NCBI RefSeq assembly: GCF_020097835.1
Contig: NZ_CP083666.1
Span: 558,001 to 622,000, forward strand
Origin: Haloprofundus halobius
GTDB taxonomy: Archaea; Halobacteriota; Halobacteria; Halobacteriales; Haloferacaceae
Reading direction: 5' to 3'
DNA length: 64,000 bases
Shown here: in pieces, positions 3,472 to 9,544 of the stretch
Position numbering within the stretch: the first letter of the stretch is position 1
Layout of the letters: every line of letters starts with the position of its first letter
Translations under genes and position numbers: made by a program
The notes under the pieces: model-generated
The model's database searches: none
Seen by the model: only the letters and a program-made list of their open reading frames with translations
Told to the model about the DNA's origin: nothing

Positions 3472-5721
3472 TTACTCTTCCTGCGCGTCCACGACCGCCA
3501 CACCCGCCAGATTCACGATGTCTTTGACTTCGTCGCCGCGCTGGAGCACGTGGACCGGCTTGTCCATGCCGACGAGCATCGGGCCGATGGCCTCCGCGCC
3601 GCCGAGGCGCTGGAGCAGTTTGTAGCCGATGTTGCCCGCTTCGAGGTTCGGGAAGATGAGCACGTTCGCCGGTTCGTCGAGGTCCGTGAAGTCGTAGGTG
3701 CCTTCGAGAATCTCCTCGACGACAGCGGTGTCGGCCTGCATCTCGCCGTCGACGGGGAAGTCGACCTCGGGGTCCTCGTGCAGCAGCCCCACCGCGTCGC
3801 GCGGTTTTCGGGTGCCCTCGTTGTCGACGCTGCCGAAGTTCGAGTACGACAGCATCGCCGCGCGGGGTTCGACGTTGAACCGGCGCGCGAGTTCGGCGGT
3901 GTGTTTCGTGACCTCCGCGAGCACGTCCGCCGTCGGGTCGAGGTTCACCGTCGTGTCGGCGGCGAAGATGACCCGGTTCTTGAACGTCAGCATGTACACC
4001 CCGGCGGCGTAGTCGGCGTCTTCGGCGGTGCCGATGACCTGCAGCGGCGGTCGAAGCGCCGATGGGTAGTGGTGCGTCAGGCCCGTGAGCAGCGCGTCGG
4101 CGTCGCCCTGTTCGACCATCACACTACCGAAGTAGTTACTGTCGCGGCGGATCAGTTCGCCCGCCTCGCTCCGGGTGATGCCTTTGCGCTGGCGGAGTTC
4201 GTGGAGTCGGTCGGCGTAGCCCTCGTGGTCCTCGCCCGCCGGGTCGACGATGTTCACGTCGAACTCCAGGCCGAGGTTCGCGGCCGTGTCGCGGATGGTG
4301 TCGGCGTCGCCAAGCAGGATGGGTTCGGCGATGCCCTGCTCTCGAATCTGGTAGGCGGCGCGGATCATCTTCTCGTCGGTCCCCTCCGCGAGGGCGACGC
4401 GCTTGGGGTTCGACTTCGCCTTGTTGAGGACGACGCGCATCATCTCGCGGGACTTGCCGAGGCGGGCTTCGAGGCGCTCCTCGTAGTCGGCGACGTCGAT
4501 GTCCTTGCGGGCCGCGCCGCTGGTCATGGCGGCCTGTGCGACGGCGGGCGCGACCTCGAACAGCACGCGCGGGTCGAGCGGTTTCGGGATGATGTACTCG
4601 GAACCGAACTGCAACGGCTGGTCGCCGTACGCCTTCACGACGGCGTCGGGCACGTCCTGGCGGGCCAGTTCGGCGAGCGCCTCCGCGGCGGCGACTTTCA
4701 TCGCCTCGTTGATCTCGGTCGCGCGCACGTCGAGCGCGCCGCGGAAGATGAACGGGAAGCCGAGCACGTTGTTCACCTGGTTCGGGTAGTCCGAGCGCCC
4801 CGTCGCCATGATGACCGTGTCGTCGCGGGCGTCTTTCGCCGCCTCGTACGGTATCTCGGGGTCGGGGTTCGCCATCGCGAAGATGACGGGGTCGTCGGCC
4901 ATCGACCGAACCATCTCCGGCGAGACGATGTCGGCGACGGAGAGACCGACGAACACGTCGGCGCCCTCCATCGCGTCGGCGAGGTCGCCGTTCGGGCGGT
5001 CGGCGGCGAACTCGCGCTTGAACTCGTTGACCTCGTCGGAGCGGTCGACGGTGATGATGCCCGAGGAGTCGCACATCGTGATGTTCTCGCGCTTCGCGCC
5101 GAGCGAGACGTAGAACCGCGCCGTCGCGATGGCGCTCGCGCCGGCGCCCGAGAAGACGATGTCGAGTTCGTCGAGTTCCTTGTCGACGATTTCGGCGGCG
5201 TTCAGAAGCGCCGCGCCGGAGATGATGGCCGTCCCGTGCTGGTCGTCGTGGAAGACGGGGATCGATACCTCCTCGCGGAGTCGCGACTCGATTTCGAAGC
5301 ACTCGGGCGCTTTGATGTCTTCGAGGTTGATCCCGCCGAACGTCGGCTCCATCGCGGAGACGCACTCGATTATCTCGTCGGGGTCGGCGCGGTCCAACTC
5401 GATGTCGAACACGTCGATGTCGGCGAAGCGCTTGAACAGGACGCCCTTACCCTCCATGACGGGCTTCGACGCCTGCGCACCGATGTTGCCGAGGCCGAGC
5501 ACCGCAGAACCGTTCGATACGACGCCGACCAGGTTGCCTTTGGCGGTGTAGTTGTACGCCTCGTCGGCGTCGTCGGCGATATCCAGACACGGTGCGGCGA
5601 CGCCGGGCGAGTACGCCAGGCTCAGGTCGCGTTGGGTGTTCGTCGGTTTGGTCGTCGAAATCTCGATTTTGCCGGGAGGTGATTGTCGGTGGTACTCCCG
5701 TGCGTCGTCATCCAGCCCCAT
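3472..5721 (-). CDS. maeB: NADP-dependent malic enzyme (malic enzyme + phosphotransacetylase-like domain)
   Basis: 749 residues from the ATG at 5721; a longer upstream reading frame exists but lacks family similarity. It oxidatively decarboxylates malate to pyruvate. The N-terminal malic-enzyme domain is visible: [41 protein letters not shown] (about residues 58-87), then FHDDQHGTA and the nucleotide-binding [10 protein letters not shown]. The C-terminal ~320 residues (from about 430, RMVVLNKA...[12 protein letters not shown]) form the phosphotransacetylase-like domain of the MaeB type, thought to be regulatory. Full length for the family (~750). The tail is duplicated at 3343-3393. An A/T-rich CATAGTTTT lies about 30 nt upstream. 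Confidence 0.95.
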
Positions 5722-5794
5722 GGCTGCGGCGACTCTTTCCGTCGGCAAAAAACTATGCATAGCGTCGATATCACGGTTCGACGAACGACGAAAC

Positions 5795-7138
5795 TCAGCG
5801 GGTATCGTGACCGAATCTGAACCCCGAGCCGTCGTCGGAGTGCTTCTCTTCGTCGTCGTCGGACTCGTCGCCGCCCGCAGACGTCGTCTCGTCGGTCGTC
5901 GACTGCCGCGACCCGGATTCGGACCGACTGCCGGTCCGGTCGTCGTCGCCGAACCGGTCGTCGTCGCCGAATCTATCGTCGTCATCGTGTCGGCTCCCAC
6001 CGACTCCGCTGTCGGGTCCGTCGTCGCCGTCGTCACCGACAGCACCGTCGCCACCGGCATCGCCATCGTCGCCGCCGTCTCCGTCGGCCGGAATCGTGAC
6101 GAGGGCGAACGAGGGGTTCGAGTGCCCGAGCACCATCAGTTCGTACATCCGGAAGTACGTCTGGACGACGATTCCGACCGGAAGCGCGATGAGCAGGAAC
6201 GCCAGAAACGCCACCAGAAGCGTCAGTCCACCCAGAGCGGCGGTGACCGGGGTGAGCATCGCACCGAACACGCTCACGATTGCGATGACGACGACGACGG
6301 CTATCGCACCGATGACGAGTCCGGGGATGGCGACGACGATGCTGGTAGCGATGCCGACACCGATTCCGAGGATGGCCCGCATGACGAGGTAGACGAGATA
6401 CTGCTTCCACTCGCCGCGGAGCGTCGGCCAGAAGCGCCGCCACCCGTCGACGACGCCCACGTCTTCGACGAGCATCACGGCGGTGACGAACGTGTTCGTC
6501 AGGCCGACGACGAGGCCGAGAACGACGCTCACGAGGGCGAAGAGAGCGAGCGCCGCGACGATTCCGACGACGCCGACTCCGGCGAAGAGGCCGCTGAAGA
6601 GGCCGGGGTCGATACCGTACTCCGAGAGGAGTCCGGGCGCGACGAACGCGAGGACGAACAGCGCGGCCCCGACGAGTATCGGCACGCTGACGACCACGTC
6701 GAGGAGCAGTTTGAAGCCGAACAGTCGAAGCCCCTTGCCGAACCGACGGCGGAACGGCCCGCGGATGCGCACGTCGTCGGTGCGGAGGGCGTCGAGGAAG
6801 ACGAATCGCATCACGTCGCCGATGAGGCGGAACAGGAGGACGAGGGCGAGGAGGACCACGAGGACGCCGCCGACGAGGAGGGCTACCTCGGCGAGCGTCC
6901 CGGGGTCGACGCCGGTCGTCGGGTCAGGCGCTGGAGAGGGCGTCGGCTGTGGTTGCGTCGGCACGTCGCCGCTTCCCCCGAAATTACCGAAATTCAGCGG
7001 TGAACTGCCGGTGTTCAACACGCCGAGGAAGAAGACGATTACTGCGAGTCGGAGCCACCGACCGAGGCGAAACGGGAACAGGAATCGACGAGTGGAATCT
7101 ATCGCATCGTCGATTGCATCGATTGCGTACCAGGGCAC
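5795..7138 (-). CDS. Multi-pass membrane protein of unknown function with acidic C-terminal tail
   Basis: 447 residues. The N-terminus ([23 protein letters not shown]) is a short amphipathic lead-in to the first membrane helix, followed by a Pro-rich extracytoplasmic linker. About six further hydrophobic segments lie between residues 85 and 340, in clusters separated by basic loops ([30 protein letters not shown]). The last ~90 residues are Asp/Gly/Ser-rich with repeated DDRFGDD units and are probably disordered. The domain arrangement resembles the haloarchaeal DUF7544 family, but I do not recognise a function. It is divergently placed from the malic enzyme neighbours and transcribed alone. 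Confidence 0.8.
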
Positions 7139-7226: not shown

Positions 7227-8396
7227 CTACACGGAGAGCAGTTCGTGTCGTTCGACGGCGACGTCGTAGCCGACGGCGTCGACCTCCCGGCTCGGCCACT
7301 CGCCGGTTGCGGTGAGCGTCTCGAACCTGTCGCCGGTGACGAGCACCGTGTCCTCGCTCTTCGCGCCCTGAATCGTCGGATTCCACGCGTATCCCATCGG
7401 CGCGTGAACGTCGTCGTCGGCCGTCGGCGACGCGAACCACTCGCGTCCGGCGTAGCCCGCCGCGCCGCCCTGATGGTGGTGCTGCCACTCGTCGGGGAAC
7501 CCGACGCGGTCGTACGCCTCCCGAATCGCGTCGAAGACGCTCGACGCTGCGCCGCCGTGCTCGGCGACATCGCGCGTCGCCGCCAGCGCCGTCGCCTCGA
7601 CGCGCATCGCCTTCTCGTGTCGCTCGGCGAGCCACTCGGGCGGGTCGAACGCGACGGTTCGGGTCGTGCTCGCGTGGAGGCCGCCGCGTTCGGCCGTCAC
7701 CGAGACGAGCGCGTAGTCGCCGAGCGGTTCGAGTTTCGGCGTGTAGTGGCGGTACGACTGCGCGCGCTCGGCGCCGCCGACGAGGACGACGGGCGCGTTG
7801 ATGCCGCGGGCGGAGAGCGTCACGCGCAGCGCCGACGCCGCCTCGTGTTCGGTGTCATCTGCGGTCAGTTGGCGACAGACCTGCTCGACGGCGTCGGCGG
7901 TGTCGCGCCCGAGCGCTCGGTACGTCTCGATATCGCCCTTTGAGAGTGGTTGCCGGAGCGCCGAGGCGTTGACCGACTCGAAACCCGGCACCTCGAAGTC
8001 CGCCGCGGCGTTCGCCGGCGAGCGGTCGGCGACCGTCTCCGCGAGCGACGACTCGTACCACTGCCCCGTCTCGACCGAGAACTCGTCGGGGAGTTCCTCG
8101 TCGACGAGGCGCGGCGCTTCGATGTTGTCGGTGACGACGCGGAACTCGCCGTCCCCGGCGTCTCCGTTCTCGGATGCGACGTACCCCGCGGCGGCGACGC
8201 CGAGGTCGGCCGTCGCGCTGACGACGTTGTCGCCGCCGGTGAGCCACGCGAAGGAGTTCGGACGGGCGAACCAGACGGCGTCGAGACCGGTGTCGTCGAG
8301 ATACTGGCCGAGTCGTCGCCGCCGGTCGGCGAGCGCGTCGGACGGGTCGGCGGTTCCGCTGGTACTGACCCCGGCATCGTCGGTGTGGTCGGTCAT
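7227..8396 (-). CDS. M24 peptidase-fold protein, probably inactive (Xaa-Pro aminopeptidase-like)
   Basis: 389 residues from the ATG at 8396. The N-terminal creatinase-like domain (residues 1-170; LDAVWFARPNSFAWLTGG) and the C-terminal pita-bread domain are recognisable. M24 enzymes bind two metals through Asp, Asp, His, Glu, Glu. Here the first Asp pair is replaced by Ser (YALVSVTAERGGLHASTTRTV, where active enzymes have D-x10-D before TRT), and the TIEPG glutamate appears as WNPTIQG. The last Glu is kept in SEDTVLVTG, and a His-rich HHHQGG occupies the His loop. This suggests a binding or regulatory pseudo-peptidase rather than a protease. The gene stands alone. Confidence 0.85.
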   Translation of the reverse strand: MTDHTDDAGVSTSGTADPSDALADRRRRLGQYLDDTGLDAVWFARPNSFAWLTGGDNVVSATADLGVAAAGYVASENGDAGDGEFRVVTDNIEAPRLVDEELPDEFSVETGQWYESSLAETVADRSPANAAADFEVPGFESVNASALRQPLSKGDIETYRALGRDTADAVEQVCRQLTADDTEHEAASALRVTLSARGINAPVVLVGGAERAQSYRHYTPKLEPLGDYALVSVTAERGGLHASTTRTVAFDPPEWLAERHEKAMRVEATALAATRDVAEHGGAASSVFDAIREAYDRVGFPDEWQHHHQGGAAGYAGREWFASPTADDDVHAPMGYAWNPTIQGAKSEDTVLVTGDRFETLTATGEWPSREVDAVGYDVAVERHELLSV

Positions 8397-8650
8397 GTTC
8401 GGGCTAATCGGCGGCACGTACTTCAACCGGTCGAAGGCGGACGACGAGACACGGCAACGAACGACGAGACGGCGGCGGACGAAGCCCGATGCGAACGGAC
8501 GCGGAACGCCGACTGAGAGCGGGCGACAAAGTCGCCGGTCGGACTGCCTGACTCCGCTGGCTTGTTCGACCGGTGGACGTTCGAGAAGCGGACCAGATGG
8601 GCGTTCGGACAGGTCTAAGTACGCCCGCGCCCGACCCTGCGCTAGGGAAC

Positions 8651-9544
8651 ATGCTGAGAACACGCACTCGCCCCGACTGGTTCTCGTTTCGACGTTTCGC
8701 GGCGTTCACCACCGCGTCGACGGCGCTGCTCATGATGCTGGGTATCTACACCGCAGCGACCGGGTCCGGACTCGCCTGTTCGGCCCAGTGGCCGCTCTGC
8801 GACAACGGCCTACTGCCGCAGACCATCCCGAGCTTCATCGAGTGGTTCCACCGTCTCGTCGCGATGGTCGTCGGCTTCCAGATTCTCGGGACCGCGGTGT
8901 GGGCGTGGAGGCGCGGGGCCGAACGAGGCGTCAAACTCTCGGCGACGCTCGCGCTCGTCGTGTTGCCGCTGCAGGTGAGCATCGGCGCGGTGACGGTGAC
9001 GCTGTCGGGACTGATTCCGAACGGCTACTCGGTGCCGACGCAGGCGGCCCACTTCGTCGTCGCGCTGACCATCTTCGGCGCGCTGACGTTCGCGACGCTG
9101 CGCGCGTACGAGAGTCACTTCCGCCGGTCGGCGCTCGAACGGGCGACCCTCGCGCTTCCGGCGGCGCTGGTACTGGTCGGACTCGCGGCACTCTCGAGTC
9201 GGGTCTGGGCGTTCGTCCCCTACGGATCGGCGACGCAACCGCTGTTCATCGGCACGTCGCTCGGGGCCATCGCGGCGCTACTCGCGGCGCTGGTCTGGAT
9301 CACCCAAGCGTCGACTGGACGGTCGGAACTGAAACGCCTCCGCCCGCTCGTCGTCTCCGCGCTCGCCTTCGTTGTCCTCGTCGCGCTGCTCGGTCGCGAC
9401 CTGGTCGTGTACACGTCGCTCGTCCGCGACCTCAACGCGCTGCTGTTCGGTCTCGCGCTCGCGAGCACCGCCGCGGCGGCGTGGCTCGCCCGACGTGCGG
9501 AGACGACGGAGACGCCGCCGACACACGGCGTCAGCGGCGACTGA
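8651..9544 (+). CDS. ctaA: Haem A synthase (COX15/CtaA family)
   Basis: 297 residues, start ATG at 8651, with 7-8 hydrophobic segments. It should hydroxylate and oxidise the haem O C8 methyl group to make haem A for terminal oxidases, in the membrane. Family marks in the N-terminal half: LGIYTAATGSGLACS, a Cys pair (ACSAQWPLC), haem-ligand-type His in IEWFHRLVAMVVG (about residue 64) and PTQAAHFVVAL. The C-terminal half has no His inside any membrane segment, so the second His pair of bacterial eight-helix CtaA is missing. It is transcribed away from the M24-like gene. The family assignment is firm. Confidence 0.88.
   Translation: MLRTRTRPDWFSFRRFAAFTTASTALLMMLGIYTAATGSGLACSAQWPLCDNGLLPQTIPSFIEWFHRLVAMVVGFQILGTAVWAWRRGAERGVKLSATLALVVLPLQVSIGAVTVTLSGLIPNGYSVPTQAAHFVVALTIFGALTFATLRAYESHFRRSALERATLALPAALVLVGLAALSSRVWAFVPYGSATQPLFIGTSLGAIAALLAALVWITQASTGRSELKRLRPLVVSALAFVVLVALLGRDLVVYTSLVRDLNALLFGLALASTAAAAWLARRAETTETPPTHGVSGD

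Follow-up and report, generated by a model that had tools for sequence, protein, structure and literature searches.

The M24B prolidases (Xaa-Pro dipeptidases) carry a two-metal peptidase site with five ligands (Asp, Asp, His, Glu, and Glu). The M24 fold is also found in metal-independent enzymes, namely, creatinase and the ectoine hydrolase DoeA, and in the domain of Spt16, which has no peptidase function. In this work, we analyzed a 64,000-nucleotide window of the haloarchaeon Haloprofundus halobius (contig NZ_CP083666.1, positions 558,001 to 622,000) and found an M24-fold gene, hereafter P0001, in which one of the five ligands is kept. The product is probably a mislabelled sugar enzyme.

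The gene and its predicted fold

The gene and its neighbors in the window are as follows.

7227..8396, minus strand: M24-fold gene P0001, 389 aa, identified by an uninterrupted frame, a Pfam match, and a predicted fold
5795..7138, minus strand: DUF7544 gene, adjoining the M24 gene downstream on the same strand
3472..6066, minus strand: malic enzyme-phosphotransacetylase (Pta) fusion, with a homologue in 31 of 80 related loci
8573..9544, plus strand: ctaA (haem A synthase), a divergent neighbor; 45 of 80 related loci have a match, which in most of them is directly divergent

The first-pass annotation had described an intact gene of the M24 peptidase fold, and both points held. The frame runs through 389 aa and a stop without interruption, and Pfam PF00557 (Peptidase_M24) reaches 37.5 bits (cut-off 23), which places P0001 in the M24 family. 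A Creatinase_N match was below threshold, and the Pfam matches at E up to 1 consisted of M24, Creatinase_N, one weak HTH model, and nothing else; an NCBIfam search with P0001 found no model near its cut-off. AlphaFold (81 sequences; pLDDT 92.7, pTM 0.89) predicts the complete prolidase/creatinase fold. When compared by Foldseek and VIA-align, the model covers the whole two-domain prolidase fold, with Z of about 30 to prolidases and up to 30.7. Other fold matches include creatinase (Z 28.9), DoeA (28.8), the DMSP lyase DddP (27.7), and Spt16 (about 25).

As for the neighbors, malic enzyme-Pta was called as the next gene on the same strand in 39 of 121 loci by our own GC3-based gene caller, whose neighbor calls are approximate. 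Its frame (3472-6066) and the end of the DUF7544 frame share 272 bases; the true start of malic enzyme-Pta probably lies downstream of 6066 on the minus strand.

Active-site residues and metal ligands

We aligned P0001 to the prolidase of P. furiosus through a profile of 20 relatives, with the P. furiosus residue numbers counted from this alignment. The metal ligands D209 and D220 correspond to S232 and S243, H284 to G311, and E327 to E348. The stretches HHQGGAAGYAGREW of P0001 and HSLGHGVGLEIHEW of the P. furiosus prolidase align without gaps, so that the metal ligand H284 corresponds to Gly311. The remaining ligand, E313, has its place within or next to a deletion of five residues, at which the P0001 family reads N339-P340. 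By strand register (GM..AWNP vs. GMVITIEP), the Glu of the EPG motif becomes N339, whereas it faces a five-residue gap in the HMMER and MAFFT alignments; no Glu is found there under either alignment. Row L044 of profile alignment A1 carries an out-of-frame stretch and was retained. Alignments by MAFFT and hhalign against ordinary M24 proteins of the same genome gave the same Asp, Asp, and His replacements, and hhalign run with three canonical rows likewise paired the His with Gly and left the EPG Glu opposite a gap. In summary, the ligands D, D, H, E, and E read S232, S243, G311, N339 or gap, and E348 in P0001, and E348 alone remains under all three alignment methods.

The nine positions that we take to represent the M24B active site, together with the adjacent R216, are listed below.

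7752..7754, minus strand: Y215, where M24B enzymes have their first conserved active-site His (Y in 79 of 81 rows, F in 2 of 81)
7749..7751, minus strand: R216, beside the place of the first active-site His (R in 81 of 81 rows)
7701..7703, minus strand: S232, place of metal ligand Asp 1 by alignments
7668..7670, minus strand: S243, place of metal ligand Asp 2 by alignments
7476..7478, minus strand: H307, active-site His that is kept and is not a metal ligand
7464..7466, minus strand: G311, place of the metal ligand His
7443..7445, minus strand: R318, place of the HExP His
7380..7382, minus strand: N339 (in AWNP), position of metal ligand Glu 1 or next to it
7359..7361, minus strand: K346, place of the conserved Arg in GVRIED
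7353..7355, minus strand: E348, the sole metal ligand kept

These results agree with the earlier reading that both aspartates of the D-x10-D motif are Ser (S232-x10-S243) and that the last Glu is kept. The TIEPG Glu, described as Asn-like, is indeed absent, and its replacement by N339 follows from strand register, but HMMER and MAFFT show a gap. The count of three changed ligands has to be raised to four of five, because the metal His is also lost (Gly311). Judging from these replacements, P0001 should not bind the usual two metals.

Another M24 protein of the same genome (L004; C1:2241800-2242462) has Asp ligands that look altered (ITGASANVDGYHSELERT), with the GH and EPG motifs present.

Conservation and selection

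Across 81 haloarchaeal sequences, seven of the nine canonical active-site positions never vary, and most of these seven carry new residues; over the whole alignment, 57 of 361 columns are invariant (hypergeometric p 5e-5). S243, G311, and N339 are among the residues without variation, position 232 is Ser in 79 of 81 rows, and R216, H217, H308, Q309, and E319 are likewise invariant. A second sample of 51 rows, which overlaps with the first and includes the H. halobius paralogue twice (L007 and L043), has few changes, mostly at S232 and S243, where paralogues carry Thr and Ala. The bacterial rows have V/T at S232 and N/S at S243, followed by H, G, R, N, K, and E; position 216 is R/K and position 215 is variable. 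Because seven of the nine active-site positions do not vary across the 81 sequences, the ligand loss is a family trait and not decay.

Pairwise dN/dS against five sequences of the genus was 0.09-0.18 (YN00) or 0.25-0.41 (NG86); two of the five sequences, with the same values, may come from a single genome. A pseudogene or decaying gene was rejected based on the intact frame, the invariant site, and dN/dS well below 1. Separately, one relative (L047; G168:C1:1608321-1609394) has lost H307, R318, N339, and E348 in addition; it is a decayed or re-purposed member and illustrates how decay of the site appears.

Distribution and phylogeny

Within the archaeal family, 149 of 170 genomes carry the gene, as do 304 of 392 haloarchaeal genomes sampled from the order. 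When a sample of the phylum was searched with a profile, 39 of 294 genomes had a match, all except one within the order. The nearest named relative is from Haloprofundus marisrubri (82%). The H. halobius genome has eight M24 matches, including one 51% paralogue of P0001 on the second contig. Bacterial relatives were found on plasmid records of Thermus, Pantoea, Deinococcus, Nostoc, and Gloeothece, the bacterial sample being composed of plasmids only; the same four ligands are missing from the proteins of Thermus, Deinococcus, cyanobacteria, and Pantoea. A Thermus homologue has the accession WP_244345360.1. A scan of viral contigs with the Pantoea protein found no relative.

In a 55-row tree, seven bacterial and 37 haloarchaeal rows form one clade (100/100) with a long stem, and ten ordinary M24 proteins and the DoeA homologue of H. 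halobius fall outside. Since the bacterial and haloarchaeal rows form a single clade with this support, the ligand loss is most simply explained as ancestral to the family. No paper on the P0001 family was found among the matches listed in open-licence PMC text.

Two relatives deserve separate mention. One outside the haloarchaeal order (L167), located on a 3,314-base contig of genome G527, adjoins apparent tripartite tricarboxylate transporter (TTT) genes; this short contig may be contamination. The other (L147), on a plasmid of T. thermophilus SG0.5JP17-16, is probably broken because only a 537-base remnant within a two-piece match is annotated.

Genomic context of the relatives

The bacterial copies reside among genes of sugar metabolism. 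In Thermus, the order is xylF, permease, ATPase, ROK regulator, xylA, xylB, M24, and Gfo/Idh oxidoreductase, and the copy in T. thermophilus SG0.5, which looks truncated, adjoins sugar ABC and beta-galactosidase genes. The order in Pantoea is ROK, MFS, GMC oxidoreductase, M24, and SDR. The Deinococcus copy follows GntR and aldehyde dehydrogenase genes and is next to sugar ABC and fucose isomerase genes. In Nostoc, malQ precedes M24 with a 14-bp overlap, and in Gloeothece a glucoamylase gene is found a few genes upstream. Among the haloarchaea, plasmid copies adjoin arabinofuranosidase, GH2-type, sugar ABC, and Gfo6 genes, and the H. halobius paralogue adjoins a GH2 protein. A chromosomal copy of Haloarcula is arranged as nucleoside hydrolase-M24-amylase-creatininase, M24 is paired with a PfkB kinase in two chromosomal loci, and Gfo/Idh-M24 pairs occur in some chromosomal copies. 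An SMP-30 lactonase gene lies approximately 4 kb from the H. halobius paralogue (C2:311723) and directly beside another paralogue (L042); SMP-30 matches were found in 56 of 170 genomes of the archaeal family.

Within 6-7 kb, 18 of the 19 loci of the family have sugar genes, compared with 2 of 8 loci of ordinary M24 genes (Fisher p 6e-4), with contexts classed from annotation by the author, not blind, and with related loci in the sample. When collapsed by genus, the counts were 12 of 13 and 2 of 8 (p 0.003). The family set comprises 19 inspected loci of 36-39 matched records, and it was mainly ROK, treZ, or sugar-porter genes that placed the Pantoea loci in the sugar class. The records left out are mostly additional ones from Thermus and Pantoea, a Haladaptatus record (H10), and two Aminobacter records, while an Anoxybacillus protein (L148) was excluded for having all five ligands. 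The control consists of 8 of 114 ordinary M24 plasmid records, with flanks of 6 or 7 kb; three of these eight loci adjoin hydantoinase, proline, or peptidase genes. The window copy itself has no sugar genes as neighbors (ctaA and malic enzyme), nor do the copies in N. thermotolerans and on the short G527 contig with the TTT carboxylate transporter have a sugar context, and the neighbors of other orthologues show no clear theme. The genomic context points to sugar metabolism, a possibility that the first-pass annotation had not raised.

Co-occurrence with markers of sugar use

We used glucose dehydrogenase as a marker of sugar use, defined by PF16912 matches stronger than 1e-60 (E-values separate between 2e-23 and 8e-73). 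Of the 392 haloarchaeal genomes, 296 have glucose dehydrogenase and 96 do not; the M24-fold gene occurs in 276 of the former and 28 of the latter. By archaeal family, the corresponding fractions are 49/57 and 3/35 in f4, 86/86 and 4/9 in f7, 83/86 and 5/8 in f1, and 53/54 and 13/31 in the remaining families; the association fails in f12 (5/13 and 3/13, p 0.67). Six mixed genera, which were hand-picked (the mixed genus g75, for example, was left out), gave a Mantel-Haenszel odds ratio of 10.8 (p 0.017). Part of the co-occurrence with glucose dehydrogenase may reflect genome size or lineage.

A link to ctaA was rejected. A CtaA-family match (PF02628, E up to 0.001, often partial) was found in 55 of 60 genomes that do not have the gene, so ctaA does not explain its presence.

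Proposed function and alternatives

We consider it reasonably probable that P0001 is a metal-free M24-fold protein that acts in sugar metabolism, more likely as an enzyme than as an inert binder. The predicted fold, the ligand loss, the conservation, the clade, the gene context, and the co-occurrence are what the analysis shows; the sugar substrate, the catalysis, the acid-base pair, and the reaction are what we infer from these patterns. The family would have swapped the two-metal peptidase site for a fixed polar site (R216, H307, Q309, R318, N339, K346, and E348). In this site, Arg, Lys, Asn, and Gln may bind, with their side chains, the hydroxyl groups of a sugar or of a compound derived from one, and H307 and E348, the pair retained from the peptidase site according to the alignment, would be the acid and base without a metal. 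Such a combination of retained and new residues would suit a polyhydroxy ligand and metal-free acid-base chemistry.

Our first choice of reaction is a mutarotase-like interconversion of anomers or ring forms. This fits best because the sugar partners are of every kind (transport, glycosidase, isomerase, kinase, and dehydrogenase), and such a step would serve glycosidases, isomerases, kinases, and dehydrogenases alike. Of the 170 genomes of the archaeal family, one has GalM and one has RbsD/FucU, so a mutarotase gap exists there, though spontaneous mutarotation may make an enzyme dispensable. In its fullest form, the proposal makes the family a further type of sugar mutarotase that works without metal on a peptidase fold, interconverts anomers or pyranose and furanose forms, fills the GalM/RbsD/FucU gap, and is wrongly annotated as a metallopeptidase; we regard this reading as tentative and rather unlikely.

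The alternative that survives best is a metal-free hydrolase that cleaves a C-N or C-O bond of a sugar derivative (lactone, glycosylamine, or glycated amino acid) in the manner of creatinase and DoeA, which are both fold neighbors. The Haloarcula copy (L088), flanked by nucleoside hydrolase, OCD-family, and creatininase genes, is in line with this, as are the adjoining Gfo/Idh, SDR, or GMC oxidoreductases that may make lactones. However, a second lactonase would be redundant near the H. halobius paralogue and L042, such that a lactonase role is less likely where SMP-30 is present, and the xylA-xylB and malQ contexts need no such hydrolase. We regard this alternative as possible, with the chances clearly against it.

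It is rather doubtful that P0001 is a non-catalytic pseudo-enzyme that uses the old pocket for binding only, as a sugar sensor, scaffold, or chaperone. The loss of four of five ligands would be expected of such a protein, and the non-peptidase Spt16 domain is among the PDB neighbors. However, the charged pocket residues are invariant in 81 sequences and largely retained in bacteria, and the neighboring genes mostly encode enzymes and transporters. The first-pass annotation had favored a non-catalytic binding role, which the present data do not bear out as the likely one. The pocket is not degenerate, and with its fixed R, H, R, N, K, and E common to archaea and bacteria, catalysis fits as well as binding.

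The ctaA and malic enzyme-Pta neighbors (45 and 31 of 80 loci, respectively) would suggest that P0001 takes part in haem A or central carbon metabolism, yet this is improbable given the CtaA-family matches in gene-less genomes and the lack of both neighbors at the inspected bacterial and paralogue loci. Least probable of all is a displaced metal site, in which H307, H308, E319, and E348 would still bind metal and the protein would be a peptidase after all, as the invariance of H307, H308, R318, and E319 and the name M24 family metallopeptidase given in public records to 18 of 19 inspected relatives might suggest, but the ligand alignments and the sugar contexts, as opposed to the hydantoinase, proline, and peptidase genes near some control loci, argue against it.

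If a metal-free sugar enzyme is correct, an overlooked step of sugar catabolism would be encoded in 304 of 392 sampled haloarchaeal genomes, as well as among sugar genes of Thermus, Deinococcus, cyanobacteria, and Pantoea. The Thermus xyl operon and the haloarchaeal pentose clusters make the sugar role directly testable. Most relatives inspected carry the metallopeptidase label in public records, although their metal site has been lost.

Comparison with known systems

GalM and RbsD/FucU mutarotases have only the proposed reaction and operon partners in common with the P0001 family. Membership in GalM was rejected, as PF01263 is absent from the Pfam matches of P0001 at E up to 1, and no RbsD/FucU match was found at the same threshold. 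The Spt16 N-terminal domain (FACT) shares the M24 fold (Z approximately 25). What sets the P0001 family apart from Spt16 is its conserved charged pocket and its metabolic neighbors.

Creatinase (1chm) has the same fold as the P0001 model (Z 28.9, rmsd 3.1, 336 residues aligned). This comparison is at the fold level, with no creatinase among the sequence matches of P0001 at E up to 1 or the profile matches up to 0.01. Similarly, the ectoine hydrolases DoeA/EutD (6twk and 6yo9) have the fold in common with P0001 (Z 28.5-28.8), a likeness at the fold level with no DoeA entry among the sequence matches of P0001 or profile A1. The H. halobius genome carries a separate DoeA homologue (L005), which is outside the P0001 clade. 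This strong DoeA/EutD homologue (C2:178993-179622; 385 bits) is found in a haloarchaeon, and a passage in a 2018 review (PMC5924519) describes ectoine consumers as restricted to Proteobacteria.

The M24B prolidases/Xaa-Pro dipeptidases share the full two-domain fold with P0001 (1pv9 from P. furiosus, Z 26.9; 5cde from X. campestris, Z 30.7), together with E348 and H307. Unlike these enzymes, P0001 has the Asp, Asp, His, and Glu ligands replaced, with Tyr for the first active-site His, Arg for the HExP His, and Lys for the Arg of GVRIED. Based on the predicted model and the alignments, P0001 is thus an M24 protein by fold and descent and not a metallopeptidase by site. If the proposed role is true, it would be a further case of a peptidase fold becoming a metal-free enzyme.
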